Part shown: piece after piece, positions 9,378 through 62,489 of the stretch
Position numbering within the stretch: position 1 is the stretch's first letter
Layout: the number at the start of each line of letters is the position of its first letter
Source of the DNA: Cephalotus follicularis
Lineage: Eukaryota > Streptophyta > Magnoliopsida > Oxalidales > Cephalotaceae
Length of the DNA stretch: 64,000 nt
Assembly (NCBI GenBank): GCA_001972305.1
Contig: BDDD01000982.1
Span: forward strand, 94,671 to 158,670
Reading direction: 5' to 3'
Position numbers and translations under genes: made by a program
The notes under the pieces: model-generated
Seen by the model: only the letters and a program-made list of their open reading frames with translations
Told to the model about the DNA's origin: nothing
The model's database searches: none

Positions 9378-9382
9378 TATTG

Positions 9383-9393: not shown

Positions 9394-9547
9394 AAATAGG
9401 TTTTGTTTCCTTAAAAGGCCTAACTAGGTTTGACCTGTGAGATTGGGTAGACAATGGGTTAGGCTATTCCGTTATGATCTTATGATATGTTTTCTCTTTC
9501 GGTTTTTGTTCTTTGTGATGTTTCATGTTTTGAGTGTCTTTTCGTAG

Positions 9548-14068: not shown

Positions 14069-14110
14069 GGTATGTGTATGTTTGTGATTTCGGGACGAAA
14101 TAATTTTTTT

Positions 14111-14127
14111 AAGGGGGGGTGGGTGGA
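14111..14127 (+). other. F1 polypurine tract
   Basis: AAGGGGGGGTGGGTGGA directly before the 3' LTR start at 14128; priming site for plus-strand synthesis. Confidence 0.85.
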
Positions 14128-16463: not shown

Positions 16464-16579
16464 CAGTCGGTTGCCTTCAAGAACAGTCGGCTGTTTTGGA
16501 TGAGTAGTCGACTGCTTTGCCTTGGCAGTCGACTGGATAGGTTGAGTAGTCGACTGCTATGAAGAACAGTCGACTGCTT
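16464..16579. repeat. TCGA-palindrome cluster, distal, F2 3' LTR
   Basis: Six CAGTCGACTG-type motifs in 116 bp, about 1.36-1.47 kb from the sense start of the LTR. The equivalent in the other LTR is near 22757-22855. Confidence 0.88.
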
Positions 16580-17637
16580 CTGCCCAGAAAATGCAGGCAG
16601 TGGTAGTTCATGCAATCCAAGTTCAATTTCCAATCAATTTCAATACATGTAATCATGCACAAAATAGACATACACAATATGCATACTATATCTTCCATAA
16701 CATATCATTACCCCTACCTCAAATCGCTATCCCAAGATCAATTGGAATGATCTTTCTCTTTGAGTTTCCCAAGTCACTTTCACCAACAATCTCTCAATCC
16801 AGCAGATTATAATCTAAACATCCACGGTTATGGATACATGCATCAGTAACAGTAGGTTTCAGTAGTACTTATAACAGTTACAATTCCAACAGTAGCTTAA
16901 TCATCAAGTCATTGAGTCTTAAACATCACTCTTACCATTTTCCCACTTTCTCTTTGAACTCTATGTCAAATATCATTAAATTTCGGGTTCATTGATCTTA
17001 AGTGTGTCGACAGAAGATGCACATTTACATTTAGGAAACCAGTAAGTATATCCTAACCTTAACATTAACTATAATCCAATCTAGAGGTTATATTCAACCA
17101 TTTGCACTTGAACCATATGCTACATTCCACATCAATTCAATTCTAGAAGTTGGTTAACCTTAACCATGTTAACAGAAGATTAAACATTCTCCCAGATACA
17201 TCCTCATAACAACAACAGAGAGTTCGGATTGAGAACTTACCAAGAGAGACCAAAGCTTCAAAGGTTCCTTCTTTGAGTTCTCTAAATCCTTCCGAAGCAA
17301 GCCTTCCCAATTCCAGCAATTCTCCTCAATTCAGTGTTTTCTAACACTCACCTTTAGCTCCTGGACAGCTGATATAAAGGCTTTGAGACTTTGAATTCAC
17401 CAGGCTCCATTACTCAGCCTCTCTCCCTTTCTCTCTCTCACATCCACCTCTTTTCTTACCCTTCTTTCTTCAATTTTGCAGGTTGCAGGTCTGCAATCCT
17501 TGCAGAGGGAATAGAGAGCATGCATGCATTCTATTTTGCATGCTCTGGCATCCCTGTCTCATGTGACACCTGTCCCCCATGCAATCTCCTCTTTGTTCAG
17601 TTTAACAGGCATGCACAGACACCTGTTCTTTACCGAT

Positions 17638-17768
17638 CCAGTTGACTGGATGCATTCGCTAGCCGACTGTCCATAACACGCATCAGGCAGTCGACTGCTC
17701 CCCTGTGACAGTCGGCTGCCCCTTTATAAACCAGGCAGTCGACTTCCCCCCTGTGGTAGTCGGCTGTC
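17638..17768. repeat. TCGA-palindrome cluster, proximal, F2 3' LTR
   Basis: Six CAGTCGACTG-type motifs in 131 bp, about 170-300 bp from the sense start of the LTR. The equivalent in the other LTR is near 23917-24047. Confidence 0.88.
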
Positions 17769-17938
17769 AAGGTTTGTTTTAGGGTTTCTTAAGTTTTATT
17801 TTTCACCAGATCGCATCTCGATTCATCCCAAGCAATTACCAAACACAACTTTATAATAATTGGACATTAAATTCAAATGAGTGAACATTTTATTAATAAA
17901 AATTATAATGTACACGAATTGAATTTGCGGTTATTACA

Positions 17939-17984: not shown

Positions 17985-20900
17985 TCACATTCTGAATAGG
18001 TGGGGAAATGTCTCCCTCATTTCGTCTTCACGTTCCCACGTGGCTTCCTCGGCTCTGTGAAAACACCACAGCACTTTAACCATAGGGATGGTCTTGTTCC
18101 TCAGAACCTTTTCCATGTGATCCACAATCCTCGTCGGCCTTTCTTCATAAGTCAATCTAGGGCTAATGAATCCAGGGTCGTAGCTCAAAATGTGAGATGG
18201 GTCGGGTACGTATTTCCGTAACATGGAAACATGAAATACGTTATGCACGTCCGACGAACTAGGCGGTAGTGCAATCGCCTTGCGACTCAGCGCATCAGCC
18301 ACTACATTTGCCTTTCCTGGGTGGTATTGTATATTGCAGTTGCAGTCATTGAAGAATTCCACCCATCGCCTCTGTCTCATGTTAAGCTTCTTCTGGGAAA
18401 ACAAATATTTCAAACTTTTATGGTCAGTGAAAATTTCAAACTGAGCTCCATAGAGATAGTGCCTCCATTTCTGCAAGGCAAATACTATGGCCGCCAACTC
18501 AAGATCGTGTACGGGATAGTTTTCCTCGTACGGCTTCAACTTTCTTGATGCATATGCAATCACCCTACCATGTTGCATCAGAACGCATCGCAATCCTTTC
18601 CTAGAAGCATTAGTGTAGACAGTAAATCCCTCTTTACCCTCAGGTAATGCCAACACTGGAGCCGAAATCAACCGACTCTTCAACTCTTGGAAACATGTCT
18701 CACAAGACTCGTCCCACATAAAACTGGACTTCTTCTGCGTCAACTGTGTTAGTGGTGCAGCAAGTTTTTAGAATCCCTTGATGAATCTGCGGTAATAGCC
18801 AACCAATCCCAAGAAACTACGCACCTCCGTAACATTCCTCGGTTGGGGCCAATCAACAATGCTCTCAATCTTCGAAGGATCCACTGACAATCCTTCACTC
18901 AACACGATGTGACCTAAGAAAGTCACATGATCCAGCCAGAATTCGCACTTGCTGAATTTGGCGTACAGCTGTTCCTTCTGTAGTATATGCAATACAATCT
19001 TCAAGTGCTGCATGTGTTCCTCAACGCTCTCTGAGTAGATCAGGATGTCATCTAAGAATATCACAACAAACTGATCAAGATAAGGTTGGAACACTCTGTT
19101 CATCAGACACATAAAGGCTGCAGGAGCATTAGTTAAACCAAACGGCAGTATCAAAAACTCGTAGTGCCCATATCTGGTTCGGAATGCAGTCTTCTCCACA
19201 TCACCTTCTCGGATCCTCAACTGATGATAACTTGTCCTCATGTCAAGTTTGGAGAATACAGTTGAGCCTTGTAGTTGGTCGAACAACTCCTCAATATGTG
19301 ACAGAGGATATTTGTTCTTCACCGTCACTTGATTTAGCAGCCTGTAGTCAATGCATAGACGCATTGATCCATCCTTCTTTTTCACAAATAGAACCGGTGC
19401 TCCCCACGGTGATACACTCGGTCTGATGAAGCCTTTGTCAAGATAGTCCTGCAATTGAACTTTCAACTCCTTCAATTCGGCAGGAGCCATTCGGTATGGT
19501 GCTCTGGATATCGGAGCAGTTCCAGGCAACAACTCAATGTTGAACTCTACATCTCTCTCCGGTGGCAACGAAGTGAGTTCATCTGGAGACACATCAGGAA
19601 AATCACATACAACAGGCACTTGTTCAATACTAGGAGTACCTTTCGTATGATCGATCACATACGCCAAATAGCCCTCGCATCCTTGCTTGAGATATTTCTA
19701 TGCTCGTGTATATGAAATGATCGGAGCAGTAACATTCTTCTCTCCGATAAACTTGCACTCCGTCCCATCTTGCAGATAAAATGTCATCATCTTGTTGTAG
19801 CAATCAACACAAGCATGATGAGCATACAGCCAATCCATCCCCAAGATTACATCAAAATCTCGGATAGGTAACACTATCAAGTCAGCGGATAATTCAATCC
19901 CAGCTACCACGATTTCACAGTCCTTCATAACAGTATCAGATAAAAGACAAGTACCCGCAGGTGTACTCACCTCCAAAACATATGGTAATCTAGAAGTAAC
20001 ACCATGCAACTTGCGAGCAAAACTAGATGCAATAAATGAATGCGTCGCACCAGGGTCAATCAACACATGAGCTAATATGCCAGATATGTAAATGGTACCT
20101 CCCACAACAGTAGTAGATTATGGCACATCATCTTTAGATAAGGTGTAGACCCTACCTTTCACAATCCCCTTTCCGGTGTCCTTCCGCGGTTGAACTGTCG
20201 CAACACTACCACTAGCACCAGCACTTCCCTGTTGGCCGCGTGCATGATCCCTCATCATCGGGCATTTACTCAGCATGTGATCTTGTGAACCACATCTCAA
20301 ACACTTTCCCATCTTCTTCCAGCATTCGGTCTCATCATGATTCTGACGACCGCAAAAAGTACATCCACTTGCATTCTGCTGACTGTTTCGGCCAGGTGTC
20401 CTTGATCGTGTGCGTCGAGAACCACCTTGCCCTCTGTTATCAAACTTGGTTGACTTAGCAGGATTATTACTTCCCTGCCCCTGTTATTGTACGGCCCTCG
20501 ATTGATTAGTACGAGTCCGTTCTGCCCTTCTCTCATTAGCATCTTCTTTAAGAATCATCGCCCTCTCAGCAACTTCAACAAAAGAGGTCAGCTGCAACAT
20601 CAACAATTTGGATCTGATATCTGGTCAAACGCCTTTCAGGAACCTCCGGATCATCCGTGACTCTCCCTCCACAAGATAAGGCATTTGTCTGGCCAACTCC
20701 ACAAATTTGGTCTGGTACTGAGCTACTGTCATGTCTCCTTGACGTAACTCCATCAACTCTGTCTCCCATCTGTCACGCTCTATCTGCGGTACATAAGCAT
20801 CCAGAAACTCGGACGTAAATCTGTCCCAAGTTTTGCCAAGTTCACGGGCTTCCCATTTTGCTTCAGTTCTTTCCCACCAGTACGTAGCTTCGCCCCACAA

Positions 20901-21320
20901 GCGGTATACAGCAAAACTGAGCTTCTGCTCATCAGTACATTCTAGAGCAGAAAATATCTTTTCCAAGTCTTTGATCCACCGTTCAGCTATGGTAGCATTC
21001 AACTCGCCATTAAAGGTCGGAGGATTCTGTCGCATGAACCGCTCCAGATCTCTGCCAAATCCACCTGCATGACAAGCATCCGGTGCTGGCTGATATGCCC
21101 GGTTAGCCTCATACATTTATCGGATCTGTTCCATGTTTGCTGCATTCGCTTGCATCTGCTGTCGGAAAAGATCAGCCAGGTTGTCAAAATTACTCCACTC
21201 ATCATGGACTGGAGGAACATTCACTCCTTCATTCATTTGCGGAACATTTTCAGGTACTGGCAGAGCATTGAATCCTTCGTCGGCTCTACGCCTTCCTCGT
21301 CTACCTCTTCTTAGATCCAT
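17985..21320 (-). pseudogene. F2 gag-pol remnant
   Basis: On the minus strand a gag begins near 21320 (MDLRRGRRGRRR) with a retrotransposon gag domain to about 20630 (WIKDLEKIF, WWERTEAKW). A CCHC knuckle CLRCGSQDHMLSKC lies near 20260-20305. A protease with GATHSF is near 20035. RT spans about 19600-18880 with [13 protein letters not shown] and FLDDILIYS. RNase H follows at about 18640-18290 with [13 protein letters not shown] chromodomain-type tail ends near 17990 (EEATWERE). RT and RNase H are in long open stretches, and the region has only a few breaks, so it decayed recently. The set of pol parts seen is shorter than in F1, so the copy was probably not autonomous. Confidence 0.9.
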
Positions 21321-21409
21321 TTGTTTCCTATATGGAATGACGAAAATCATTAGGAAACATTTCACTCAAATTTTTTGAGAAACTTATCCCAGCTAGCATA
21401 TATGGAATA

Positions 21410-21422
21410 TGCTCTGATACCA
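21410..21422 (-). other. F2 primer-binding site (initiator-Met tRNA)
   Basis: The minus strand reads TGGTATCAGAGCA, three bases inside the LTR edge at 21426. Confidence 0.9.
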
Positions 21423-21425
21423 TGC

Positions 21426-24215
21426 TGTCACACGCCGTTATTTCAATACCATTATAGACAAGCATATATGGTGATATCAGTATTAAACATACATTCCAGC
21501 ATTTCATTCAACAGTATATAACAATATGCGGAAGCAGTCAATAAGCCGGAATATAAATACAAGCCGTCCGCACGCATCCCATAATACGTGCGGGTACAAG
21601 TCAAATATTGTCCTTAACATAAGGAAATACAACATAAACGAGGTATGATCCGTTAATTACAATTACAGTACATCATAAAAGAAAAAAACAACCTTAAGGT
21701 GAATAAAAGAAGCTCTCCAAGCTTCAGCAGCAACTCCAACGTCTTCGCTCAATCTGAAATTGTAGGGGTTAGCCATTGTCCTCACTTGGCTAAGTAGGAA
21801 GATAATGCATGCTAAGGAATATATGGATGCAATATGTATGACAGTTTATATAAAATAACATTTAAGGAGCCAATATATAAGCAATCATGCCAAGTGGCCA
21901 TAAACAGTACATATGCAAGAATACCGCACAAGGGTACAATCAATTCATACAGTGGTTGGGTGTCACATATCTCTAACTCATAGTACCAACTGTGCACCAC
22001 CTCACTATCACCCTATGCACTGAGGATGATAGAACAGGTAACATTTACTACCGACGTTGGCGGCTAGTTTAATAGTAGTTCTGTAACTGCAGACAGTTTG
22101 GGTGACACTCTGGCCAAGTCCTGGCACCCAGGATCACATCCGTAGTCAGTGATATCCTCTGTCACTAAACTACGGCAGTAAGCATAGACAATCAATTCAA
22201 TCAGTGCAATTCAATGGTAATATTACATATATAAATAATATGCAATATCAAGTGTTTTCTTTAGAAACAAATATCATTTCAGTGATCGTACATCTCATGT
22301 GAGGAAAACGATATCAGTACAGTAGTGGTTTCCAGATGAGGAAACAAAACAGTAGGTAACTCTCATATAGGAGGAAAATCAGTAGTTCATTTAGCATAAG
22401 TCTTTCCTTTGAAAATGATAGTAAATATCATAAATTTGGGTACAAGGCCTATAGATGGTTTCAATCTTTGAATTATCAGTGGTAGTGGTGTTAATAGCAC
22501 CAAACAGTATATACTAACATAAGTAGCATATGCAGTAACAATAATCAAAGGCAGTAGTAATTCAAGGAATCACAAGACAATAGCATTTCATAGTCATTCA
22601 TATGCAACTTTCACAAGAAGTGCGTACATTGTTTAATCTTGAAATGTAATTGTATATGAGGCCAGGATTAACTGTTCTAGTTATCCAAATTGAGGCCAGG
22701 ATCATTACATTCAATATTGAGGCCTTAATAGGACTTATATCAGTAAAATTTCCCAGAACAGTCGGTTGCCTTCAAGAACAGTCGGCTATTTTGGATGAGT
22801 AGTCGACTTCTTTGCCTTGGCAGTCGACTGCTATGAAGAACAATCGACTGCTTCTGCCCAGAAAATGCAGGCAGTGGCAGTTCATGCAATCCAAGTTCAA
22901 TTTCCAATCAATTTCAATACATGTAATCATGCAGAAAATAGACATACACAATATGCATACTATATCTTCCATAAAATATCATTACCCCTACCTCAAATCG
23001 CTATCCCAAGTTCAATTGGAATGATCTTTCTCTTTGAGTTTCCCAAGTCACTTTCACCAACAATCTCTCAATCCAGCAGATTATAATCTAAACATGCATG
23101 TTTATGGATACATGCATCAGTAACAGTAGGTTTCAGTAGTACTTATAACAGTTACAATTCCAACAGTAGCTTAATCATCAAGTCATTGAGTCTTAAACAT
23201 CTCTCTTACCATTTTCCCACTTTCTCTTTGAACTCTATGTCAAATATCATTAAATTTTGGGTTCATTGATCTTAAGTGTGTCGACAAAAGATGCATATTT
23301 ACATTTAGGAAACCAGTAAGTATATCCTAATCTTAACATTAACTATAATCCAATCTAGAGGTTATATTCACCCATTTGCACTTGAACCATATGCTACATT
23401 CCACATCAATTCAATTCTAGAAGTTGGTTAACCTTAACCATGTTAACAGAAGATTAAACATTCTCCCAGATACATCCTCATAACAACAACAGAGAGTTCA
23501 GATTGAGAACTTACCAAGAGAGACCAAAGCTTCAAAGGTTCCTTCTTTGAGTTCTCTAAATCCTTCCAAAGCAAGCCTTCCCAATTCCAGCAATTCTCCT
23601 CAATTCAGTGTTTTCCAACACTCACCTTCAGCTCCTAGACACCTGAGATAAAGGCTTTGAGACTTTGAATTCGCCAGGCTCCATTACTCAGCCTCTCTCC
23701 CTTTCTTCTCTCTCTCACATGCACCTCTTTTCTTACCCTTCTCTCTTCAGTTTTGCAAGTTGCAGGTCTGCAATCCTTGCAGAGGGAATAGAGAGCATGC
23801 ATGCATTCTATTTTGCATGTTCTGGCTTTCCTGTCTCGTGTGACACCTGCCCCCCATGCAATCTCGTCTTGGTTCAGTTTAACAGGCATGCACAGACACC
23901 TGTTCTGTACCGATCCAGTCGACTGGATGCATTGGCCAGTCGACTGTCCATAACACACATCAGGCAGTCGACTGCTCCCCTATCACTGTCAGCTGCCCCT
24001 TCATAAACCAAGCAGTCGACTTCCCCCCTGTAGTAGTCGGCTGTCAAAGTTTGTTTTAGGGTTTCTTAAGTTTGATTTTTCACCAGATCGCATCTCCATT
24101 CATCCCAAGCAATTACCAAACACAACTTTATAATAATTGGACATTAAATTAGAATGAGTGCACATTTTATTAATAAAAATTATAATGTACACGAATTGAA
24201 TTTGCGATTATTACA
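21426..24215 (-). repeat. F2 5' LTR
   Basis: 2790 bp, colinear with the LTR at 15131-17938 and about 96% alike over the stretches I compared. It contains the same two palindrome clusters and the same hairpin. Open frames inside it are LTR sequence read through and show no domain. Confidence 0.93.
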
Positions 24216-24220
24216 AATTC

Positions 24221-25992
24221 TGGGTTTTTGTGTCATCTAAACATCATACAATGCCTTGTGTATATGTTCATATGTCTATGGTATGATCTCTTTCATGTTT
24301 AGCCAATTTCTGTATTGCAGAAATGTCAAGTTCTGTTGTTCTGTCATCCAGAACAGTCAGTTGTTCTTATTGACAGTCGGCTGGTTTGGTTCTGTAGTCG
24401 ACTGCTTTATCAAAATAGTCAACTGTCTTGTGTTGTGTAGTCGGCTGTTTGTATGAATCAGTCAACTACCTTGTTTTGCATAGTCGGCAGGACCTCTGTC
24501 ACAGTCGACTGCTTGGAGTCCAGTTTGTGTAGTCGACTGGCCCTATTGCATAGTCGGCTGCCAAGCTTTGAACAGTCGACTGGAGCTCTGTAACAATCAG
24601 TTGTTTTGTCCAGAGAATTCCTGTTTTCAATTGTTTTGAATCGTTTGTTCGTCAAATCAATCCGGTTCTTTTCTAAACACTGTAATGAGTCTGTTTTATG
24701 TCTCTAATGTTTCTTAGAGTCTTACATAAATAGTTTTGTGTCTTTTAGATTGTTGTGCTTCAAGGGGAATTTGAGTTAACAATCCTTCCGTAAGTGTTTT
24801 TGTGAACGCAAAATGGTACGGATTTCTATCGTTCTTTGGCTATCTGGTTTTATCGAACTAAAATCAGTTTCGTTTTATGCTATGTTTCTTCGTTTTATGA
24901 ACTTGATTATGTCTTATGGTTTTGACATGTTTTGGAAATAAAGTTGGTTTTTGACATTTTATGAATTTAAATGTTTCTGACTTTATTCTTATGCTATGAT
25001 ATGTTATGATATGAAATGATCATCTCTTTATATTGAGAAATAAATGAGTTGATATTTTGACTATGAAATGTATGTTATCATTGTGAATGATTTTCAAATA
25101 TGTTTTGAGAAGTCATATTTATGTGTTTTTAAAGTGATGTTTTCGAAATGATTGAATACTAAGTATTGTACTCACCTATGGGGCGTACCATAGGCATGTC
25201 GTAGGCCTGGCACGGGGACATGACACTTCCGTAGCAGTGTGATTAGACTACGGCGTCTCTCAAAGTTATGAATAAATCCCATGAGGCGGATTTATGGAAA
25301 CACTATGTATGATAGAGGCGTATGAATCGATTCTAGAATATGGATATGTGATATGAAATGATATGTGAGAATTGACTTGTGTAGTCCCGTTCACTTCAAT
25401 TCTAATGGGCATGTGGAATTAGCGCCTCCCTTGCCAATCTATGTTATGAAATGTGATATGATATGTGGCTCAGTATGACTTTATCAATCATGAAATGATG
25501 TTTTTGAAATGTTTCGTAAATGTATCGAAAGATATGAAATTGGTATTTTATGAAAATTTGGATATGATTTCAAAGAATGTTTAAGCTGTTTTAATTGCTT
25601 AAGATTTTTTGTTATGAGTTTCATTGAGATGTTACTTCTTTTACTTTCTTTATCCATACTGAAGTTTGCTCAGCCGTGTTTTGTTTTCCATGCGGCAGGT
25701 TATCAGGAGCAGCGAGGGAATGTGTGAATGAGAGTTGGCCACTTTTATGGAGTGTGATCCATATATTTGTCTTATGTTATAGTTGTCATGAACAATATGT
25801 TATTTTGGTTTATGTTTCGATATTTGACTTCGAAATATGATAAGTTTTAAGTTTGGAACAGTTTTTCAGTTATGCTATGACCGCCACGTTTTTGGCAAAT
25901 AAAGTTATGTTTATGTTCATATAAGCTTTGCTATGTTATGATAGGTTCTGTATTATGACCTGTGACGGCTCCCGTCTTCCGGGGGTGTTACA
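24221..25992 (+). repeat. F1 3' LTR, second part
   Basis: Continues the F1 LTR after the F2 insertion, matching about 7590-9377 of the 5' LTR and ending GTGTTACA. Includes the palindrome cluster at 24352-24604. Confidence 0.92.
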
Positions 25993-25997
25993 CTTTT

Positions 25998-28485
25998 GTT
26001 GTCGCTTGAGTACTGCAGTGCTAAGGATTTTGGTCAACGGGTCTACTAGGTTTGCCTCCATGGAAACTCTCTCTAAAAAGCAACATCTCCTCTAAGTATG
26101 ATCTCCTTGATCAAGTGATACCGTCGCTATATATACATGGAGCGGTGGTGAAACTTGGGTTGTTTGGCTTTGTACAAAAGCCCCATCATTATCTTAGTAC
26201 ACTGCAACTAGACGTGCGATGGTTGGAACCACATAAAGTTCTATAATTAACTTCCGCTACCAAACAGCTACCTAGACGGCATCTAAGGTCACTACATATT
26301 CTGCTTACAACATGGAGTTCATAGTAGTTTCTTACTTTCATCTCCTTCAGCTAACAGCACATGCACGTAACTCAAAACGGACTTGTGATCATCCTGATCA
26401 CTAGTTGAAACTAAAGTCTGAATGACTCTCCAGTCTCAATACACAATCTCCTCCACATGTCAGGAAAGTATCATGAGACCTCCTCAAGCACTTTATAAAA
26501 ATCTCTTGACAATTTCCCAGTGCCTATCACCGATATTGAACTAAAAACGACTTGCCATTCACTTGGCAAGTCCGATATCAGGTCCAGTACTAAGCATGAC
26601 ATACGTGACATAGCAAAGAGCCGAAGCTTAAGGCTTCCTACGCATGTATGATCTCTCTGCAGCTGTCTTTGAAGACATCCTGTTGGAGAGGTGAATTCCT
26701 TGGCCAATTTGTAGTAGGTCAAACATGGAATTCTCCAGGACATACCGTTTCAGCATCCTGCTCATGTACTGGGTTTGGGAGAGCTTGAACAACCTACTAG
26801 ATCTCCTTGATCTTTATACACAATACATAGGAAGCTTCTCCCAAATCCTTTATGAAGAAGTTCTTGGATTACGATACTATGATTTACATACATCATATCC
26901 AATGATCAGTTCGTCATCCTCGTATAGTGCCAAGAGCGTGAGTCCAGGGTTATCCTGTTACCAGAAAACACAAGGCAAAACATGGTAAATGTCTTTGGGT
27001 TCATTAGAGCCTTCAAAGAGGAAACCATGTTTCTCAAGCACTGTAGAAACCATGCCTGACCTCCTCTCCTTGAGTAGTGTCTTACTGAGATTCCATCTCA
27101 GGTTGGAAACCTTCCCCAACTGTGTTTCTAGAGGTTTCTACCTCTAATTCCTTATCCTATTATGGTCTTTACCAAGTGGAAACTCTCTCAGTTCCACCAT
27201 GCTCCCACTGCTCCCTATGAGCAGGTATTCCTATTTCTATGAATGTGACAATACGCGATACAAACACTTTTTGATCGTTGGGATGGTAAAAGTAGTATTC
27301 CTTAGTTTCCTAAGGATACCCCACAAAACCGGCATCGATCCGCTCGCGTCTCCAGCTTAGAAGGTTTCCGCCTTCTCACATAATCCAGACAGCCCTTAAA
27401 CCCTCAAATGGTTTAGGCTGGGTTTCCTCCTTTTAAATCACCTCTTGTGAAAAGGAAGGGGACCGATTTCAAAAGGAATCCGGTTTAGGATGCACGCTGC
27501 CAACTGCAGTGTATAACCCTAAAATGAGTTCGGAAGATCTGTAAAAAACATCATGGTCTTGTTCCTCCATATCGGACATACCATCTCCTGTGGTGTTCCT
27601 AGAGGGGTCCATAGAGAGAGAATTCCATTATCATCCTGATAACCCAGGAATTCAGAAAACAGGTATTCACTTCCCCAGTCAGATCGTAATGCTTTATTGG
27701 GCTTACCTGTTTGCTTTTCTACTTCTCTCATTTGTATTTTACCATTAGTTCCCCCTTTTGAATTGTTAAGCAATTTGTTGCTTATTATCTAGAACATAAT
27801 CCCGCGTTCTATGTGCTCCTCGCACATTTGAACATTATCATGTATGAGACGACAAGTGAATGTAGAAAGAAATGAGCTCCTAGCTCTTCTTATACATTAA
27901 AGAAACGAAAATTCATATCTTATAAAGTTCTCTACAAAGTAGCTTGGATCATGTTCAAATATATAATCATTTACAAATTTAAATTCAAAAATGCCTATAT
28001 GAAATGTGTGGATTACCAATCCATCACAAAAGGCATAAGTCCAACTTGTCTATAGCTCCCAGCTGTCTATCCTCTCCTGGGTCCTTCCAAGAGTTGTAAA
28101 CGTTAATCTCACAACCTGAGTCAACAACAAAAGTTGAATTAACATTATAAGCTAGAAAAGACTCAATCAGGAGAGTACTTGACACCGAGGCCTCTCCTGA
28201 TGTGGACTTCAGGAACTTAGCACAAAGTACTCTCCTATGCCCTTTGCTTCTCACAATAAAAGTAGGCATTCTCATTAAAAAGTCGATGAATCCTAGACTA
28301 GATAGCATCCCCAACCACCCTGTGTTGTTCCTTCCTGTTCTTCCTTATGGGCTCCATGGGCTCATTGTCGTTGTCGTTGTCGTTGGACTTTTTAGGTCCA
28401 CCCCAGTCGGGGTTTGTCCGGGAAGAAGTGGATGGTATTATTATCACGTTAGACTTGGACCTCCCATGGTCCATGTTAGGGGTCC
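25998..28485 (-). pseudogene. Copia gag-pol remnant
   Basis: Read on the minus strand from high to low coordinates. A gag end and protease region near 28310-28080 shows a VVDSGCEINVYNSW segment like the Copia active site. An integrase core near 27770-27520 shows KALRSDWGSEYL and a GTPQE segment. The integrase end near 27350-27230 has a GYPKE...YYFYHPNDQKVF-like stretch. RT near 27000-26880 keeps a YEDD-type catalytic region. A later RT/RNase H part near 26640-26270 has AMSRMSCLVLD. This order (integrase before RT) is diagnostic of Copia. The region is heavily broken and the element is old. The rest of pol lies across the F1 insertion only as the polypurine end. Confidence 0.82.
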
Positions 28486-29665
28486 TGTCGACTGCACAAC
28501 ACAAAACAGTCGACTATATTCATAAGACAACCAACTACACAAGCGAAACAGTCAACTGGTCATAAAGACAGCCGACTGTTCTGAGTGACAGAACAGCAAA
28601 TTATGACAGTTTTGTGCAATCTAGCTACTGAAACATGGATTTCTCAACACTAGAAGTCTACCAACACTTAAAATGGCACTGTATGGCATTTAAAATGATA
28701 ACGTAACACTGAATTCAGGTAAGATACGTTGACAGTGATTAATTTAAGGTGAGAGATGAACTTAAACCATGCATACCTCTTCCTAATAAATTTTCTGTCA
28801 AGTTACATGATCATATCCTAAAACCAGATTACACAATACATATGAGATGTCTACAAGCTTACTAACATACTCAGAACAATTGACAGAACATAAGGAAGGC
28901 AGAAACCAAAATGAATTCATATCTAGCACCCTATGCATGCAAAACGAATTCATGATAAAACTAACAACATAACCATCACAGCAAGGCAACAAACTAACCT
29001 GCAATGGCGACACAAACTGTAGGATAACACAGGATTTTTAAAGCTCAACCACGGCTATTGACAGGAATCAAAGGGAAGAAAACATATAGCTTAAGGATTT
29101 GACAAAGCCGTACATATACAAATAAAACAATTTCTAAATTGAACCTTGAAGAGACAAACTTGACTTTGGTGACCCGATTACACAGAAAGCACACTGAATT
29201 TCCACTTGCAGGTGGCATAAGATATATTGGCATTAACAAACTTAAATAGGAAGAAGAAGCAATTTAGGAAGGATAAGGATTAAGGAAACCAAATCTGATT
29301 TGATAATAAAAAGAGGAAGATTTTTAGGGGTTAGAATTGGAAAGAGGGAGGGATACAGGGAAGAGATAGAGATAGGGGAGGGAGTTACGGGAAAGGAGAG
29401 TTTGAGAGGGATAGGGAAGAGAAATAATAAAAAAATGATAATAATAAAAGATTTTCTTTTAAAACGGTTTAAAAGCATAATTAATCAAATAAATTTGTAA
29501 ATATATAATAACCTACATTTTACCAATATACATACACATATAACATATTAAAAATTAAGGATGGTATCAGTCAACCCAAAACATAAACCCAACATAAAGT
29601 AGACAGACTACTTATCGAAGCAGATAAAAATCCCGAAAATACGTACGGACAAACAGGGTACTACA
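28486..29665 (-). repeat. F1-type LTR fragment, minus strand
   Basis: On the minus strand it begins TGTAGTACCCTGTTTGTCCG at 29665 and follows the first 1.2 kb of the F1 LTR. The shared stretches are the TCTCC-rich block near 29300-29420, the block with AAAACCAGATTACA near 28822, and palindromes at 28488-28580. The LTR's second half and any interior are missing, and no target duplication is seen. The left limit against Copia sequence is approximate. Confidence 0.75.
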
Positions 29666-29667
29666 CT

Positions 29668-31589
29668 ATGTCTTCTTGGTGCCAGTCACCAAATCATGTT
29701 GTTGAAGAATGCCAAATTTATATTGACAATCAATATGCTCCTGAGAATGTTTCCACTATGAATGAATACAACCCATTTACTAACACTTACAATCCGGGTT
29801 GGAGAAATCATCTAAACTTCTCATGGAGTCAAGGGCAAAACATGAGAGGACAATCAGGTTTTTCGAGTCCAAATTCAAATTTTTCTGGGCAGCCTTCTAG
29901 CGTTGGTGCCCCACCTTCAAATTTTTTGGGACAACCTTCAAGCTTTCCTAACTAGTCTGTACCACTGCAGACCTTTCCAAGGTTTCCCCCAAATTTGAAT
30001 AATATTCGGCCATCCTTCCACAACAAAATCAATTTCCTAATAAACAAACATCAGGTTTGTCAAACCAAAGGGATGATACATCTAGGATTTCATCACTAGA
30101 AAAGAGTGTAGAACTTCTTATAAGCACTATGATGACTAGCCAGCACAACATAGAAAAGCAAATCTCTCATCTAGCATCTGCGGTGCATACAAGAGAAAAA
30201 GGGAAGATGTCATCCCAACCTGAACAAAATCCTAGGACGAATATGATTCAGCTCGCTCGCATCCAACCAATATCTAATCCACAATGCTCCTCTTCTTCTG
30301 GACCATCGGATCAAGCATTTGCCTTGCGGAGTGGAAGAGAGTACTAACCAGCGGAAACCATACAAAATTTGAGCGAGCAATTGGTTGAGCCCTTTGTGCA
30401 TGACAAATCAATAGAACAGTTGGTTGACTCCTTTGCGCAACCAACAAATTTAAATGCCCAAGAAGAAGTTAGGAAAGAGAAAAAGAAAAAGGAACAATTA
30501 ATTGAAATACCCAAAAGTTCATTTGATCCCCCAGTTCCTATTCCAAGGAGATTTCAAAATACGAAAGCCACAGCGATGGAAAAGATCATCAATAAGTTTA
30601 AACAAGTTCAAGTCAATATTCCATTGCTAGAAGCAATTGAGCAGGTGCCCTCTTACGAAAAAGTCATAAAAGACTTATGCACGAAAAAGAGGATCCTTCA
30701 AACTCCTAAAAAGGCTTTCTTAGCAGCCAACATCACTGCAATCATTTTGCAACCAAAGACTCCAAAATACAAAGATCCTGGCTGCCCGACAATCTCTTAC
30801 GTAATTGGCAACACCAAAATCGATCATGCCTTGCTCGATTTAGGAGCAAGTGTGAATTTGTTGCCTTCGTCAGTTTTTTAGCAACTAGGTTTAGAAGAGT
30901 TGCGCCCAACCAACACGACTTTGCAATTAGCTGACAGGTCGGTGAAAGTTCCTAGAGGGAAAATTGAGGATGTTTTAATCAAGGTTGGTGAATTTTTCTA
31001 TCTTGTCAACTTTGTCATTTTAGATACCCAGCCTGTTGTGAATATAAAAGACCAAATCCCAGTTAACCTTGGTAGACCATTCTTGGCCATGAGTAATGCA
31101 TTGATCAATTGCCGAAATGGTCTCATGAAATTTATTTTTAGAAAGTCATCAATGGACTTTAACATTTTTTAATTGGGAAAGCTTCAATCTGACTTTGATG
31201 ATATCTACGTGATTTGTTCGATTCCTGACACTTTTGACACATATTTTGATCATGACCTCATTATGTGTAGGAGAGAATTCGAGGTAGAGGAAGCTACCCA
31301 AAATAATAGATTGACGTGTCTAGAAAATGAGGAAGCGTTAGCATGGTTAGAAAGTGAGCTCAATGAGCCAATATCGGATAGTGAATGGAATCATCTATCC
31401 CATTACACTCACAAAATTGCAATGCCTAACCAAATGTACTTTGACATAGATTTTGATAACAACTTCATGGAATGCTTGAGAGAATTCGAGGAATTAGAGG
31501 TTACACAAAAGGAGATATTGAGTTGGTTCGACGATGGGATCATCGATTTTTTTTCGGATAGTCAATGGTTGGTTGGCCACGATATTTGA
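29668..31589 (+). pseudogene. Athila gag-protease remnant and acidic extension
   Basis: The first part is the end of an Athila gag, with NPGWRNHLNFSW and a Gln/Ser/Pro-rich tract. Next, a charged region with many KKKEQLIEIP-type runs leads to the aspartic protease, with LDLGASVNLLPSS near 30835. A GRPFLAMSNALINCRNG segment follows near 31070-31120, also typical of Athila. The last part (about 31175-31585) is acidic and contains two related segments, CRREFEVEEATQ and CLREFEELEVTQ. I do not know a family for this extension. A few breaks interrupt the region. Confidence 0.8.
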
Positions 31590-32438: not shown

Positions 32439-33847
32439 TGTATAGCATAAAAATGCATTATTTTTAATGATTTATTTGTGATATTTTTATGCTTGGAATA
32501 GACTACTTTGGTGGTGTTATGTTGATTTTCAGGTATAAAAGCAAAAGGGCCAAAGTGCATGAATTCTACCCAAAGTTGTGAAAATTGGAGCTTGAAAGAT
32601 TAAAGATTGAAGAATTGACAAATTCTGCCGAAACAGAGTGAAACGCATCGATGTCTTTCATGAACATCGATGGCTTTTCTGGGTTTGTAGTAAACACATC
32701 GATGTCTATCATGCAGATCGATGTCCTTTCTGGGATTGCAGCCAACCTTCAAATGCTATGAGAAAGACATCGATGTCTTTAACTAAACGCATCGATGTCT
32801 TTATGCAATTTCGACCTGTAGATTTTGGACCAAAACGCATCGACGTCTTTTCAACAACATCGATGTCTTTCATTACGCGTATCCCAGCAAAACGTGATTC
32901 TTTGCAAATGCATCGACCTCCAACCAAAGGCGTCGACCTCTTCTTCTACAGCAGAAATAAAAAGTTAGATTATTTTGCCAGATTTTGTAACAAGGATTGA
33001 TTTATTTCCGTTTTCGAACAGTTTTGTAGTATGACAACAATGCAAGGCCGGCCAAATTCAGTGTGTAGAGGATGGTAGAAACCCTATTTTCTTCTTTATC
33101 AATTTTATTTTGCAATGTCTTGTAGCTAAACTCTTTAAGGTTTTAGGGAAGAACAAAACCTAGATTGTTATTGTTTCAATTTCATCAATAAAAATCCTTG
33201 AATATTTGATTTGTTCTTCAATTTTTTCGCCTTCACACACACTTTGTCCGTCTGATTGAAATCCACAAACATCTTGTCGGTGAAGTTGAAAGTTGGTGAA
33301 TAAATGGTGCTTAATTCAATCAACGGAGTCTACTCATACGGTTTGTCACAACGAACACACTTCGTATAGACCTAGATTGTCTACTCATACGTCTTTCCGC
33401 CATTGCCGTACTTTGTATAAACCTAGCATGACTACTCATACATCTTGTCATCACAATCCCATTCCGTATAGACCTAGCTGCCGCTGTTTATCAAGGTATG
33501 GTTGTTTAATTAAATGGAATTATTCAATACAATCTATGGTAAGTTTCTATACCCTAAAACCGCTTTTTAATTATATATTTTCTTCACTTTTCTTCATTGT
33601 TTTGACTAGTTTTAAAATTGCATACTTTATTTCTTGGTGTTTTAAATTCAGTGTCTTTGATCATTGATGCCTTCATTTCCTGATTTGATTATTTAATTTA
33701 TTTTGCATAATTACGATAGTTTTCATAATTAAACCTTGAATTTGCATACTTCGCCTAGGTAGGATAAATTACAACTAGTTTAACGTTTCCCTGCATTCGA
33801 CTCGTTACTGCATGATCTGTGCACTTGCAGCTGTAAATTTTAAAACA
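32439..33847 (+). repeat. Athila 3' LTR
   Basis: 1409 bp from TGTATAGCATAA to TTTTAAAACA. It carries a cluster of ACATCGATGT-type palindromes at about 32641-32945, starting 200 bp into the LTR. The end with GTTACTGCATGATCTGTGCACTTGC is a hallmark of Athila LTRs. Confidence 0.8.
32641..32945. repeat. TCGA-palindrome cluster in Athila LTR
   Basis: About nine copies of ACATCGATGTCTTT-like sequence, some as GCATCGACGTCTTTT. The same 14-mer type recurs in the Ty3 chromovirus-type LTR at 58513-61364. Confidence 0.88.
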
Positions 33848-34240
33848 TTCCTTTTACGTGAACAATATCCTAGTTGGACTTCCCTTCTATTGTTTTAATA
33901 ACATCAATAGCGACCAGGAAATGGTTATGGAAAATGGTTTTGGAAATGGTTTTGACGGATGGATCCTATGTGACCCTTTATTGTAGGCCCCTATCCTTTA
34001 AATGGAAAAATTGTTATGGGCTACGGGTATTACATGGTTATGGTCATGGTTTTTTATTGTTTGAGACCTAACGAGATAACCCATTCATAATCTTCATTTT
34101 CGTCATGAGGATTATGGGTATTAGACCACATTATTGGACGGTATGGGACACCACTTTAGAGGTGGACCTAAGAGGGACACCGCATTATGCATGGACCAAT
34201 GGAAATATGATGACGGGCTAGGACCATAGAGGGCATTACA
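33848..34240 (+). repeat. LTR4, left part (older Ty3-type LTR)
   Basis: AT-rich sequence ending in GGGCTAGGACCATAGAGG, which continues in kind after the 19.9-kb complex at 54146 (ACGGGCTAGGACCATTGAGG). The two are pieces of one LTR-like repeat split by the complex. Its true left end is not determined; it may lie under the Athila LTR. Confidence 0.55.
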
Positions 34241-36203
34241 TGTAATGACTGGAATTTTCGTTGAAGTTATTGTTTATGGAAATGTGCTTTCTCTATGTCT
34301 TGTGTGTTGTGGAGTATGTTGTTTTGCATTGTATCATGTTTTGTGTGTTTGGTATCATGTGTTGTGTTGAAAGCGTCGACTGGCACGAATAAAGCATCGA
34401 CAGTCTAGCTTAAAGCATCGACAGTTTACCTTAAGCATCGAATGGATGCCTCAAAGTGTCGACTGAATTCCTGGATGCCAAACCAAGTAGTCTTAAGCTC
34501 CGACGGTTTATTAAAGCGGCAACGCTTAAGTAGTAAACCACCAACGCTTGTACCCCTACCAACGACTCTTTAAAATAGTATGTTTTCATCTCTGGCAACA
34601 CCTTCAAACGATGACACTTATCAAAAAGCGGTAGCGCTCTACAGTAAAGAATCAACGCTTTCAGTTCGAGCAACGACACTTTAAGAACAAATGGAATGTG
34701 GCATTTGACGAAACCCGTAGGCGACGACGCTTCACTTCAAAGTGTAAGCGCTTTCCCCTACATATCAGTTGAAGAATTTAGTTTTTTGTCTCTTTCTGAA
34801 TTAATTATAATAATTAAGGGACATGTGTCAAGTTAGGGAGTCAGGACTTCAGATATTTTATCCAAATGTCAAGATTAGAATGATGAGAATGACAAGTGTC
34901 ACCAAATTGGAGAGAGAGAATATCATCACATGGGCAACTAGCAGGCTAGGTGGCATGATGACTCACGAAGGCATACTTGCACCCCAAGATTCAATTAGCC
35001 GTTATATATATATGTGTAGATATAACCTGAAATTAGTTGATTTCTGCTGAGTTTAATCCATTAAAGTGAAGGAGGAAGGAGATTAAATCAAAGTAAGGAA
35101 AACCATACTCTTTCACGCTAAAGTATTCCTCTGTTTTATTTCTGATATTATGCAGAAAATTATTTTAATCATATCTTTCTCGTTTCTTAATGAAATCTTA
35201 AACGGTTGATTATTATAGAAACCTTAAGAGGTCCTCTACAACTTTTATGTTTCATGTGTTCCTAAATTTTGCCAATTGCTTGACAAAAAACTGTGTTTAA
35301 AATTACTGCTCATGTTCAGCTAAAATATGGGACCTGCAACTTTAAAAAATTACAACAGCTTCGTTTCTCAATAAAAAATTATGAACTTTATCATTCTGAA
35401 ATCTTTGAGACGTCTACTATAATTTTACAGTTTTATGTTTTCTCTTGAAATGAATGTTTCCATATGAAATATCAGTTTTAAAAATGTTCTACGATCCTGT
35501 TTTATGAATATCTTGAGCTGATCACTCAAATTATTGAGAAATGCTATATGAACTACGAAAAGTTAATGAACTGAGATGACCAAATCTTGGAGTACGATCC
35601 AAAGAGGGATGATGAAGAGCATACAGTGCTCGCGGACATGGAGTACGATCCAGTGAAGCATGGTTCAATTGGGTTCTTTGAGTTTATATAACCACTCAGT
35701 TGTTTAAAGGTTTCTAATCTATGATAAATGATTCAAAACATAAATGTGATGAAGTTTTTATTTGGAAACCCTTATTGGGCTATTTGAGCTCATTCATTTC
35801 AATGTTTTGTTTTCAAATAAAATTTTTCAGGAAATGGTTGAACGTGGAATTTCGAGCTTTATAGGGAGTTAGTGAAACAAGATTTGGAAGCAATTATGTT
35901 ATGTATAAACTATTTTATGATGTAGTAAGTCAATAATTCCACTGTGTAATGTAATATGACAAGTTATATATAAATGTAAAGACTTTAGAAATGATTGTTA
36001 TGGTATATAGTGGTTTTAAATGAGAAGTATGATGATTCAAAAGTTTAGTGTTCAAAGTTGTAAGTATATTTTGAAGTTACGAAGTTATTGAATATGATCT
36101 AACATCGAGGTTGATAAACCATTTAATTGTTCACCCCCAGTAACGCACCAAATCCTCAAAGTTTGCTTTGAGCATTTAGTGAACTCGGATCAGGGGCATT
36201 ACA
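34241..36203 (+). repeat. F3 LTR a
   Basis: 1963 bp, TGTAATGACTGG to GGGCATTACA. A cluster of GCGTCGAC/CGACGCTT-type motifs lies at about 34372-34765. Followed by a primer site. Confidence 0.9.
34372..34765. repeat. TCGA-motif cluster in F3 LTR a
   Basis: More than ten AGCGTCGAC, AGCATCGACAG and CGACGCTT-like motifs, starting about 130 bp into the LTR. Equivalent clusters are at 42598-42985 and 49636-50025. Confidence 0.85.
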
Positions 36204-40684: not shown

Positions 40685-41834
40685 TGTCACACCCCATATT
40701 TCCATACATGTACAATGGACCAGCATATGTGGTGATATCAGAAATAAGCATAAAATAATATTCCAGCATTTCAATTATTAACCATAATTAAATTGCGGAA
40801 GCATTCGATAAGCCGGAATATATATAAAACCATCCGCACGCATCCCATACTACGTGCGGGTAAACCACAATTATCCTTACAAAAGGAAAATACAACACTA
40901 CGAGGTATGAACCGTTCAATCTCAAAATTACAATACAACACCATAAAAATAATCAACCTTAAATAACAATAAGAAGCTCTCCAAGCTTCAGCAGCAGTCT
41001 CCAATTGTCCTTGCTTAATCTGAAATTGTAGGGGTTAGCCGTTGTCCTCACTTGGCTAAGTAGAATGATTACACTTGATTTCATTATTACTTTCCATTTC
41101 AATTCCAAAGATTGTTATTCCAATTCATTAACAGAAGATATATAACATTCCTAGTCACATTTTATCAACATAACAACAAGAATTTCGGATCAAGGACTTA
41201 CCAAGATTCTAAAGCCTCAAAGTCCTCCCTTTTGAGCTCTCTAAGTCATCCAATGCAAGCTCCACTAATTCCCCTCTTCACCCTGTGTTTTCTAACACTC
41301 CAATACCATTCAATCAGCAGATATAACTCTCAAGAACCTCTGAATTCGTCAGATTTGTTACCTACTCACATGCACTCACATTTTTCTTTCATTCTTTCCA
41401 CCACATGCCTCCCTCACTTCCACTTTCTCTCTTAATTAATCAAATTGGTGGTTGGTGGTCTGCAGAGAACATGCAAACATTCCACTTTTGCATGTTCTGG
41501 CAGATGGTGAGACATAAGTGCCATTATCCCATCTGTCCTTCTTGTCCCTGCACATGCCAGGAATCTGTCCTGGAGCAAACCAGTTGACTGGACATAGTGG
41601 GCAGTCGACTGCCTTCTTCACGTGGCCAACAATCGACTGTTACCCTGTGACAGTCGGCTGTTTGGGCTTGTTTAGGGTTTCCTAAGCTTTGATACTTCAC
41701 CAATTGCATATCAATTCACCCCAAGCAATTACCAATCATAGAAAACAACATAATTGGATAAATAACTCACTCAAAATGTATATTTTATTTCAATTTTGGA
41801 TCAATATACATTAATTGAAGTTGCGGTTATTACA
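40685..41834 (-). repeat. F2-type solo LTR, short form
   Basis: 1150 bp, TGTCACACCCC to GGTTATTACA, with a perfect TATAT duplication and no interior. The start follows the F2 LTR closely (CCATCCGCACGCATCCCATAC; TTAGCC hairpin near 41036-41060). It is less than half as long as the F2 LTR, so most of the LTR middle is absent. A proximal TCGA-palindrome cluster lies at about 41580-41662. Confidence 0.88.
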
Positions 41835-42457: not shown

Positions 42458-44458
42458 TGTAACGACCAGAATTTTCATTGATGTTATTGCTTATGGAAAT
42501 GTGCTTGCTCTATGTCTTGTGTGTTGTGGAGAATGTTGTTTTGCATTGTATCATGTTTTTCATCATGTTTCATTTTTTTGGTATCGTGGGTTGTGTTGAA
42601 AGCGTCGACTGGCAGGAAGAAAGCGTCGAAAGTCTAGCTTAAAGAGACAACGGTTTAGCTTAAGCGTCGAATGGATACCTCAAAGCGTCGACTGAATTCC
42701 TGGAAGCCAAACCAAGTACTCTTAAGCTCCGATGGTTTATTAAAGTGGCAACGCTTAAGTAGTTAACCAACGACGCTTGTACCCCTACCTACGACGCTTT
42801 AAAAAAATACGTTTTCATCTTTAGCTACACCTTCAACCGACGACGCTTATCAGAAAGTGGCAACGCTCTGCAGTAAAGCATCAATGCTTTCAGTTCAAGC
42901 AACGATGCTTTAAGAACAAATGGAATGTGGCCATTGACGAAACCCGTAAGCGGCGACGCTTCACATCAAATCGTCAGCGCTTTGCCCTACAGATCAGTTG
43001 AAGAATTTAGTTTTTATCTCTTTCTGAATTAATTATAATAATTAAGGGACATGTGTCAAGCTAAGGAGTGAGGACTTCAGATATTTTAGCCAAGTGTCAA
43101 GATTAGAATGATAAGAATGACAAGTGTCACCAAATTGGAGAGTGGGAATATCATCACATGGGCCACTAAAAGGCTAGGGTGCATGATGACTCACTAAGGC
43201 AAACTTGCACCCCAAACATCATTTAGCCTATATATATATAGATATGACCTGATATTAGTTGGTTTCTGCAGAGTTAAATCCAGTGAAGAGATGGAGGAAG
43301 GAGATTAAATAAAAGTAAGGAAAATCCTACTCTTTCATGCTAAAGTATTCCTCTGTTTCACTTTTGATATTTTGCAGCAAATTTTTTTGATCATATCTCT
43401 CTCATTTATTAATGAAATCTTAAATGGTTGATTTTTTATAGAAACCTTTAGATGTCCTCTACAACTGTTATGTTTCATGTGTTTCAAAATTCTATCAATT
43501 GCTTGACGGAAAAGGGAGATTAAAACTTCTGCTCATGTTCTACTAACATATGGGACATACAAATTTAAAAATTTACTACAGCTTCGTTTCTCAATGAAAA
43601 ATTATGAACTTTACCATTCTGAAATCTTTGAGATGTATACTATAATTTTATTGTTTTATTTTTTCTCTGGAAATGAATGTTTCTATAAGAAATATCAGTT
43701 TTAAAAATGTTGTACGATCCTGTTTTGGGAATATTTTGAGCTGATCACTCAAAGTATTGAGAAATGATTTATGAACTACGAAAAGTTAATGAACTGAGAT
43801 GAACAACTCTTAGATTACGATCCAAACAGGGATGATGAAGAGCATAGAGTGCTCGCGGACATGCATGTGATGTAAGGATAGTAATCGGGGAGTGCACAAT
43901 GCCCCGATGAAGCATGGTTCAATTGGGTTCTTTCAGTTTATATAACCCCTCATTTGTTTGAAAGGTTTCTAATCTATGAGAAATGATTAGAAAAATGAAT
44001 GTGATGAAGTTTTCATTATGAAACCCTTATTGGGCTATTTGAGCTCGTTCCTTTCAATGTTTTGTTTTCAAATAGAATTTTTCAGGAAATGGTTGAACGT
44101 GAAATTTCGAGCTTTATAGGGAGTTAGTGAAAGAAGATTTGGAAGAAATTATGTTATGTATAAACTGTTTTATTATGTAATAAGTCAATAATTCCACTAT
44201 GCAATGTAATATGACAAGTTATATATAAATGTAAAGACTTTAGAAATGATTGTTATGGTATATAGTAGTTTCAAATGAGAAGTATGATGATTCGAAAGTT
44301 TAGTGTTCAAAGTTGTAAGTATATTTTGAAGTTACGAAGTTATTGAATATGATATAACATCGAGGTTGATAAACAATTTAATTGTTCACCCCCAGTAACG
44401 CACCAAATCCTCAAAGTTCGCTTTGAGCATTTGGTGAACTTGGATCAGGGGCGTTACA
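42458..44458 (+). repeat. F3 LTR b, shared by units A and B
   Basis: 2001 bp, TGTAACGACCAG to GGGCGTTACA. A polypurine tract precedes it and a primer site follows it, so it serves as 3' LTR of unit A and 5' LTR of unit B. No host DNA intervenes. Confidence 0.9.
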
Positions 44459-50609: not shown

Positions 50610-50710
50610 CAGCCGACTATCACAGGGCAACAATCGACTGGTTGATTCGTGGAAGAGACAGTCGACTGTCACAGGACGACAGTCGACTGTCACAGGATGA
50701 CAGTCGACTG
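50610..50710. repeat. TCGA-palindrome cluster, proximal, F2-type solo LTR
   Basis: Five CAGTCGACTG-type motifs, three of them perfect 10-bp palindromes, about 170-270 bp from the LTR start. Confidence 0.9.
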
Positions 50711-51758: not shown

Positions 51759-51872
51759 GCAGTCGACTGTTCTTCATGACAGTCGACTACTCAAATGAAC
51801 CAGTCGACTGTTAAGAACAAACAGTCGACTACTCAACCAAACAACCGACTGTTCTTGGGAACAGCCGACTGT
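51759..51872. repeat. TCGA-palindrome cluster, distal, F2-type solo LTR
   Basis: Six CAGTCGACTG-type motifs spaced about 15-25 bp, about 1.32-1.43 kb from the LTR start. Same relative place as in the F2 LTRs. Confidence 0.9.
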
Positions 51873-62487: not shown

Positions 62488-62489
62488 AT

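Follow-up and report, generated by a model that had tools for sequence, protein, structure and literature searches.

TCGA-centred palindrome arrays in LTR retrotransposons of Cephalotus follicularis, and their match to clades of the PF20167 reading frame in Sirevirus-like elements

Arrays of palindromes are known from many Sireviruses, where they lie in the LTRs and 5′ of the envelope-like gene (PMC2829016). A passage of that paper speaks of 21 elements and the motif is reported in 13; Sireviruses without it were found too. Among the 13, it lies upstream of the envelope-like gene (ENV) in all nine that have ENV and in none of the four that do not, and published Sireviruses without ENV also have LTR arrays (PMC2829016). 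The same paper terms the motif Sirevirus-specific and absent from classic copia elements. Its core is CGG-CCG in 12 of the 13 published elements, the exception being the ATCGAT-centred Tnd-1, and TCGA-centred forms are found in Vitis (CGGTCGACCG) and Tnd-1 (ACAATCGATTGT) (PMC2829016). The role of the envelope-like gene in plant retrotransposons is described there as unproven and controversial.

VANC proteins and their VANDAL targets resemble this in having short motif arrays in non-coding parts, with related families differing in motif (PMC5735166). VANC6 has a target family, AT9TSD1, that is unrelated to VANDAL. The VANC motifs (YAGTATTAY and AGTTGTCC/AC) have one orientation and are not described as palindromic in the cited part of that paper. 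VANDALs are not LTR retrotransposons, and VANC binding has been shown (PMC5735166), while binding in the present case is a prediction.

The DNA studied here, referred to as the window, is a stretch of 64,000 nucleotides (positions 94671–158670 of its contig) from the 1.58-Gb genome of Cephalotus follicularis (1,577,397,061 bases in 9,746 contigs). The arrays of this genome represent the Sirevirus repeated motif in a TCGA-centred form, a kind already known, and share with it the multi-copy palindromes in the LTR and upstream of an envelope-like gene. The cores in this genome are TCGA or TYRA and not the CGG-CCG of the published Sireviruses. Further differences from the published motif are the CAG or RCR arms, a TYRA class, class-specific spacing and the presence in Ty3/gypsy LTRs; the window elements F1 and F2 are Ty3/gypsy, unlike the Sirevirus hosts of the published motif. 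As far as the literature was searched, the Ty3/gypsy LTR arrays, class D, the class-specific spacing and the match between class and ORF clade are new. Neither palindrome arrays in Ty3/gypsy LTRs nor class-to-protein matching was found in the literature searched, and other papers could hold them; a class-to-protein-clade comparison is not seen in the cited part of PMC2829016. The literature matches listed for the literal 10-mers look like primers or unrelated sequence.

Three palindromes could be distinguished. Class B (CAGYCGRCTG) has CAG arms, class A (AAAGRCRTCGAYGYCTTT) has RCR arms, and class D (RCGTYRACGY) has TTAA, TCAA or TTGA at its centre. The 3-bp arms around TCGA were compared in the window together with a motif-unselected sample (264 kb in all), which consists of 20 pieces of 10 kb from 20 contigs (197,075 non-N bases), their positions set by hand at 20,001–30,000 of each contig and not at random. 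CAG pairs with CAG (72 sites) or TAG (26), while ACA, ACG, GCA and GCG pair among themselves, and the CAG-GCG pairing is rarer than expected (4 vs 9.3). The original prediction saw the same motif in an Athila LTR and in the LTR at 58513–61364. Both LTRs do carry class A; across the LTRs, a single shared motif is too simple, because classes A and B hardly mix.

The Athila-type LTR contains a class A array at 32641–32945 (forward strand) with 10 sites at up to one mismatch, six of them exact RCRTCGAYGY, in agreement with the roughly nine motifs expected here. The gaps between sites are 19, 32, 19, 52, 22, 48, 20, 53 and 20 bp. This piece has six TCGA palindromes of at least 8 bp, where 1000 dinucleotide shuffles give 0.21 on average and never more than 3. 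Copies of positions 33110–33860 were found in pairs of the same orientation, 5.8–15 kb apart, on six contigs among the best 40 of 7,624 candidates scored, and the stretch is therefore an LTR. Upstream of it are gag-protease-like ORF fragments (29587–31172, forward strand), one piece of which was scanned and gave no Pfam match. The Athila name is a provisional one, given from gag-protease motifs. An ORF at 30348–30878 was tried as a distant PF20167 relative and gave no match. Four further Athila-type LTR copies have 7–9 sites each and a more distant copy, L016, has four, all at one mismatch. In L016 (3750–4380, compared with 32510–33110 of the window) the array units have switched jointly to a CGTCGACGCTTAG-like type, with nearby flanks 75–79% alike. 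Such a joint change is a concerted turnover, as reported for VANC targets.

F1 is a Ty3/gypsy chromovirus with paired 2.8-kb LTRs. Its 5′ LTR (6596–9377, forward strand; TGTAATACCC..GGGTATTACA) has exact class B sites at 7730–7958 and a TATA-like word about 140 bp further on. The 3′ LTR is split by F2 (about 14130–15133 and 24216–25992), and its right part holds a class B array at 24374–24582 (forward strand). The internal region (9378–14129, forward strand) matches RVT_1 (11124–11924), Integrase_H2C2 (12704–13168) and SH3_Tf2-1 with Chromo (13319–14065); it has no match to the proteins P0001 or P0003 and no PF20167 relative. From LTR length and primer site, we take F1 to be Tekay-like. F2 lies on the reverse strand, with its 3′ LTR at 15127–17938 (class B arrays at 16484–16576 and 17639–17745) and its 5′ LTR at 21422–24215 (class B array at 23916–24022, further sites near 22800–22830). 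It is a Ty3/gypsy element with matches to gag, RT and RNase H in the three ORF pieces scanned; an integrase core was not found in these pieces. F2 is inserted in the F1 3′ LTR (15127/24215) with a 5-bp duplication, AATTC. The motif arrays expected in the LTRs of F1 and F2 are thus present in both, as class B (CAGTCGACTG) arrays.

A solo Tekay-like LTR at 58513–61364 (reverse strand, 5-bp target duplication GCGCC) has nine exact class A sites at 59982–60297 and 61043–61191. Arrays occupy similar places in this LTR and in F2, with class A in the former and class B in the latter: the first array lies at about 170–320 in both and the second at about 1.36–1.45 kb in F2 vs 1.07–1.38 kb in the solo LTR. 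The U3 parts of the two are not alignable; the last ≈400 bp agree (61%), and there is one 37-bp match. The solo LTR also contains a 30-bp tandem repeat in seven copies (59257–59471), and a direct repeat of 408 bp, 97% identical, is found at 62012–62419 and 62489–62896, with starts 477 bp apart.

Other class B arrays in the window lie at 41581–41660 (gaps 21, 28 and 21 bp) and 51760–51871 (20, 21, 21 and 40 bp), both in F2-like LTR pieces, and at 50631–50710 (28, 21 and 21 bp). Class A is represented by three sites in an F3-type copy at 42878–42959 (gaps 21 and 51 bp) and by sites of the GCGTCGAC/CGACGCTT type at 63452–63959, which form arrays of three and five sites with one mismatch allowed. 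The repeated units had been described as near-palindromes throughout; the 21-bp repeats within F3 (34370–34441) are mostly half-palindromes. In the sample stretch L008, class A arrays adjoin gypsy RT, RNase H and SH3_Tf2-1 matches, with a chromodomain match below the cut-off. Arrays sit in chromovirus, Athila-type and Sirevirus (Ty1/copia) LTRs, which confirms the central claim of the original prediction that they occur in unrelated LTR lineages.

The TCGA palindrome arrays are real and genome-wide. Pairs of the form CAGTCGACTG-N5..15-CAGTCGACTG (15–25 bp apart) occur 38,284 times in the genome vs 137 times for the reversed-pattern control, RCRTCGAYGY pairs 125,147 times vs 299, and class D pairs in the TCAA/TTAA forms 4,670 and 4,791 times (two strands) vs 7 and 9. 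The excess is ≈280-fold for B, ≈420-fold for A and >500-fold for D (TCAA/TTAA forms only), and the arrays are not limited to a few copies. In the 20 × 10 kb sample the commonest 10-bp palindromes are CAGTCGACTG, present in 11 of the 20 stretches, and ATATATATAT (55 each), followed by TATATATATA (48) and ACATCGATGT (10), with GCGTCGACGC and ACGTCGACGT (5 each) also high. By core, TCGA accounts for 88 palindromes of this sample and the A/T cores are equally common (TATA 81, ATAT 79); TGCA gives 36, but ACGT (8), CCGG (7), GTAC (5) and GATC (4) far fewer. The whole window has 57 TCGA-centred palindromes of at least 8 bp; in 200 dinucleotide shuffles the mean count is 12.3 and the highest 21. At this length the observed counts beat every dinucleotide shuffle in all six stretches tested. 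At 10 bp or more the same holds for the window, Athila, F1 and F2 stretches and not for the solo LTR, which is not above chance (1 observed, shuffle maximum 2). The exact class B pair at 21 bp was not found in viral contigs.

Both classes are spaced in a quantised manner. With one mismatch allowed, we identified 60 arrays of at least three sites, 32 of class B and 28 of class A. The 144 gaps in the B arrays include 79 of 19–22 bp, 13 of 27–29 bp and none of 30–32 bp, and the corresponding numbers among the 150 gaps in the A arrays are 74, 1 and 12. The main spacings are thus 21 or 28 bp for class B and 20 or 31 bp for class A. Genome-wide, class B pairs number 7,802 at 27–29 bp vs 729 at 30–32 bp, and class A pairs 3,726 vs 17,813, in counts that include copies of one family and are not independent; one kind of spacer is common to nearly all of the B pairs at 30–32 bp among the matches listed. 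When 15–25 bp was allowed, neighbours were 19–22 bp apart in 57/57 B and 96/100 A pairs among the matches listed, all from one contig. A coding explanation of the arrays was dropped because gaps of 19–22, 28 and 31 bp break the frame. A purely helical rule (multiples of ≈10.5 bp) would fit class A (20, 31) and is not claimed, because the class B spacing (21, 28) does not fit it. The fixed centre distances suggest dimers that may sit side by side on the DNA. In 11-bp class B spacers the base after CAGTCGACTG is seldom A (7%) and the next seldom G (3%), and because of this bias in the first two spacer bases the class B site may extend past 10 bp.

The arrays might be a neutral by-product, left by slippage and by family amplification of a few old motif-bearing LTRs and with no present meaning. 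The tandem structure within arrays is in line with this, as are the related copies (at E<1e-12 the 60 arrays group into 15 clusters; single-linkage clusters at E<1e-3 were not used, as nearly all arrays merged) and the fact that neighbouring class A sites are alike in the direct sense, as duplication would leave them. However, 95 of the 113 class B spacers of 10–12 bp are distinct (adjacent pairs in all sequence examined) while the 10-mers stay constant, and the exact spacing is kept across array clusters with different flanks. In class B arrays upstream of the PF20167 ORF described below, the motif columns have outlasted the spacers (conservation 0.958 vs 0.746, P=5e-6); this trend is weak in class A (P 0.04) and not significant in class D (P 0.14), the test covering 10 A, 6 B and 12 of 16 D loci. 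The similar array places in F2 and the solo LTR, with U3 parts that cannot be aligned, also speak against a neutral origin, which we consider extremely unlikely.

Recombination or template switching could instead have moved array cassettes between Sirevirus and gypsy LTRs. Both superfamilies have the same motif classes, and a weak inverted alignment of the F1 and F2 arrays, the best that could be made, agrees at 35 of 58 spacer positions. Against such a transfer, F1, F2 and the solo LTR have in common, beyond the arrays, only the LTR ends and one 37-bp match and no long stretch, and the class B spacers differ as noted. Transfer of the module between LTRs, one of the two explanations first offered, is therefore not borne out by the spacers of class B or of F1 and F2, and we regard it as very unlikely. 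Links between A and B arrays by flank BLAST were considered as homologous arrays with switched class and rejected; both alignments inspected (2 of the 37 listed) look like internal coding DNA beside arrays. F2 and the solo LTR remain as a suggestive case of a class switch between homologous arrays.

The arrays might also act as RNA or DNA structure instead of as protein sites, in the form of cruciforms, double-stranded RNA feeding small RNAs or RNA dimerisation. Compared with 200 shuffles, five of six array pieces do give much stronger folds (z −3.4 to −9.1), the sixth not (z −0.9), and the LTR palindromes of maize Sireviruses are described as hotspots of small-RNA mapping (PMC5311732). Yet every site is palindromic alone, even when solitary, and pairing does not need a class-specific spacing of 28 or 31 bp. 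Adjacent class A sites are more often alike directly than inversely (30 vs 10, with 27 ties, in 67 distinct listed pairs with a non-palindromic first site), and the array in the sampled stretch L018 is placed upstream of a TATA-like box. Hairpins are on these grounds an improbable explanation.

Arrays adjoin PF20167 ORFs in three sampled stretches (L009, L015 and L018). On one strand of L018 the order is the end of a copia pol, a class A array, the PF20167 ORF, AGGGGGAG tracts and the LTR; the pol end is presumably copia, as judged by motifs in an alignment. Published Sireviruses have this same architecture (PMC2829016). The LTR of L018 has 17 class A sites at one mismatch, eight exact ones being found in the first 1.5 kb after the last PPT octamer, and a TATA-like box follows the array. 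The corresponding 1.5 kb 3′ of the PPT octamers holds 16 class B sites in L009, 3 in L015 and 15 in L020. The PPT AGGGGGAG is consistent with Sirevirus for these three and for L018. L005 has two AGGGGGAG tracts on the minus strand and nine B sites in the next 1.5 kb; other tracts in L005, L008, L023 and L024 are single or of uncertain context. Arrays are not in every Sirevirus-like element, as L019 (987–2385) has four AGGGGGAG tracts that are followed by 1.5 kb free of A, B and D sites, with one D site 5′. Its 247-residue ORF before the tracts gave no Pfam match. L019 is either a Sirevirus-like element without A, B or D arrays or one with another motif.

The class of the array was then compared with the clade of the PF20167 protein. 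Family and protein searches, in which the best 150 of 13,073, 111 of 13,652 and 90 of 14,961 candidates were scored, led to 20, 10 and 6 fetched loci, which were joined by L009, L015 and L018; the A and B loci were chosen from the best matches of one protein each, and there are three clades in all. An array is present upstream of the PF20167 frame, which is broken in some copies, in 35 of the 39 loci. Class A is found there in 11/11 A-clade loci (1–5 exact sites, 3–9 at one mismatch), class B in 8/8 B-clade loci (3–4 sites) and class D in 16/20 D-clade loci (3–8 sites, with one outer base left free for TTAA-centred sites). In seven of these 16 there is an exact class A site as well, one in each. 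Among the four D-clade exceptions, the sequence taken for L026 reaches just 40 bases upstream, and in L029, L041 and L042 other repeats adjoin the region close to the ORF. The apparent B array before the D-clade ORF of L029 belongs to an F2-family LTR, and this LTR stops exactly where the copy is again homologous to the others (880/881).

Class D was expected beforehand 3′ of the D-clade ORFs, and four of four such stretches (L061–L064) have 9–15 D sites, with 1–3 A sites each and no B sites. The PPT octamer was not found in these four stretches; they are likely LTRs. Altogether, the array 3′ of the ORF agrees in class in 8/8 copies of known clade (A in L018; B in L009, L015 and L020, the last assigned by a 58-residue match to P0001; D in L061–L064). 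The A and D proteins are 34–35% identical and the B proteins 20–28% identical to either, and in parallel the A and D motifs are more alike. Motif and ORF lie on one element, and the clades are only three in number; the match therefore shows that the two are inherited together and is compatible with co-evolution, but it could be plain co-inheritance. A feature of the VANC system thus recurs, in that three motif classes vary with three protein clades, linked on one element and so non-independent. The VANC analogy drawn in the original prediction has been a good lead.

Purifying selection acts on the PF20167 ORF in each of the three clades. The median dN/dS is 0.15 in B (15 pairs, range 0.08–0.25), 0.15 in D (44 pairs, 0.09–1.26) and 0.13 in A (17 pairs, 0.06–0.31), from 6 B, 10 of 16 D and 7 of 10 A loci; L045, L047 and L052 were dropped for frames of <100 codons, and pairs were excluded when they shared <80 codons or were saturated. 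P0001 and P0003, the latter ended early by a stop codon, are basic at the start and lack a strongly hydrophobic stretch (no 19 residues exceed 1.64 on the Kyte-Doolittle scale), unlike a membrane envelope. The C-terminus of P0001 looks coiled-coil-like by eye. Pfam gives PF20167 only and no known DNA-binding domain for the candidate protein, and a profile search of the Protein Data Bank gave no significant match (best E 0.055). No relative of P0001 was found in viral contigs, and the literature gave nothing for the Pfam description of PF20167 together with retrotransposon.

We tentatively favour a reading in which the arrays are protein-binding enhancers, most likely bound by the PF20167 product and exploited by gypsy LTRs. 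The TCGA palindromes would be arrayed sites for a dimeric DNA-binding protein, placed in Sireviruses in the LTR (in L018 upstream of the TATA-like box) and in the stretch 5′ of the 3′ extra ORF, and in gypsy elements in the LTRs. The product of PF20167, usually called envelope-like, would bind its cognate palindrome at the internal promoter and the LTR and so raise transcription or counter silencing. Chromovirus and Athila-type LTRs may have acquired the same sites and so exploit the protein in trans; F1 would need to do so, because its internal region has no PF20167 relative. The layout is like that of foamy viruses, in which the viral protein Tas acts on the LTR and an internal promoter (PMC8670036, PMC4929722); the likeness is one of layout, and activation by the PF20167 product would be an extrapolation from it. 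A further-reaching version, which we think possible and put forward with reserve, is that the PF20167 gene of plant Sireviruses is not an envelope gene and may encode a fast-diversifying, sequence-specific transcription or anti-silencing factor of the element, with a clade-specific code of palindrome and spacing in the LTR and internal promoter. Other retrotransposon superfamilies would parasitise it through matching arrays, in a genome-wide trans-regulatory economy among selfish elements.

The main rival is that one or more host transcription factors, active where transposition pays, use the palindromes as enhancer sites, which Sireviruses, chromoviruses and Athila-type elements acquired independently; Sireviruses would use one enhancer twice, in the LTR and in the internal promoter from which the extra ORF is expressed. 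The presence of arrays in gypsy LTRs, although the F1 internal region has no PF20167 relative, agrees with this, as do the LTR arrays of Sireviruses without ENV, for which the authors of the 2010 study favoured stress-related factors (PMC2829016). Against it, one genome holds at least three classes, which follow the protein clade and of which two have spacing rules of their own, and no host factor with such sites was identified in this analysis. Osr8, Osr9 and Osr10 are rice elements. The published repeated motifs differ among Sireviruses of one host, Osr8, Osr9 and Osr10 for example (PMC2829016), which is unexpected for a single conserved host factor. We consider a host factor rather unlikely. 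The data lean towards an element-encoded binder, because classes and spacing differ within one genome and the classes track the ORF. The proposal of a host DNA-binding factor is supported in part, in that the arrays look like protein-binding sites, and the weight moves from a single host factor to element-encoded ones because three classes match three PF20167 clades.

If the PF20167 product does read the palindromes, the question of the envelope-like gene becomes one for a simple binding assay. LTR families would then be linked through a shared regulator rather than evolving separately. Even with a host binder, the >160,000 close pairs, nearly all of the listed ones 19–22 bp apart, offer candidate cis-regulatory sites in very large numbers, all open to testing within a single plant genome.

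Finally, a repeat abuts the array spot 5′ of the PF20167 ORF in L029 (rc 582–880), L041 (rc 603–822) and L042 (rc 2–767). Repeats at three of the 20 D-clade array spots point to a possible insertion preference for array or promoter DNA.
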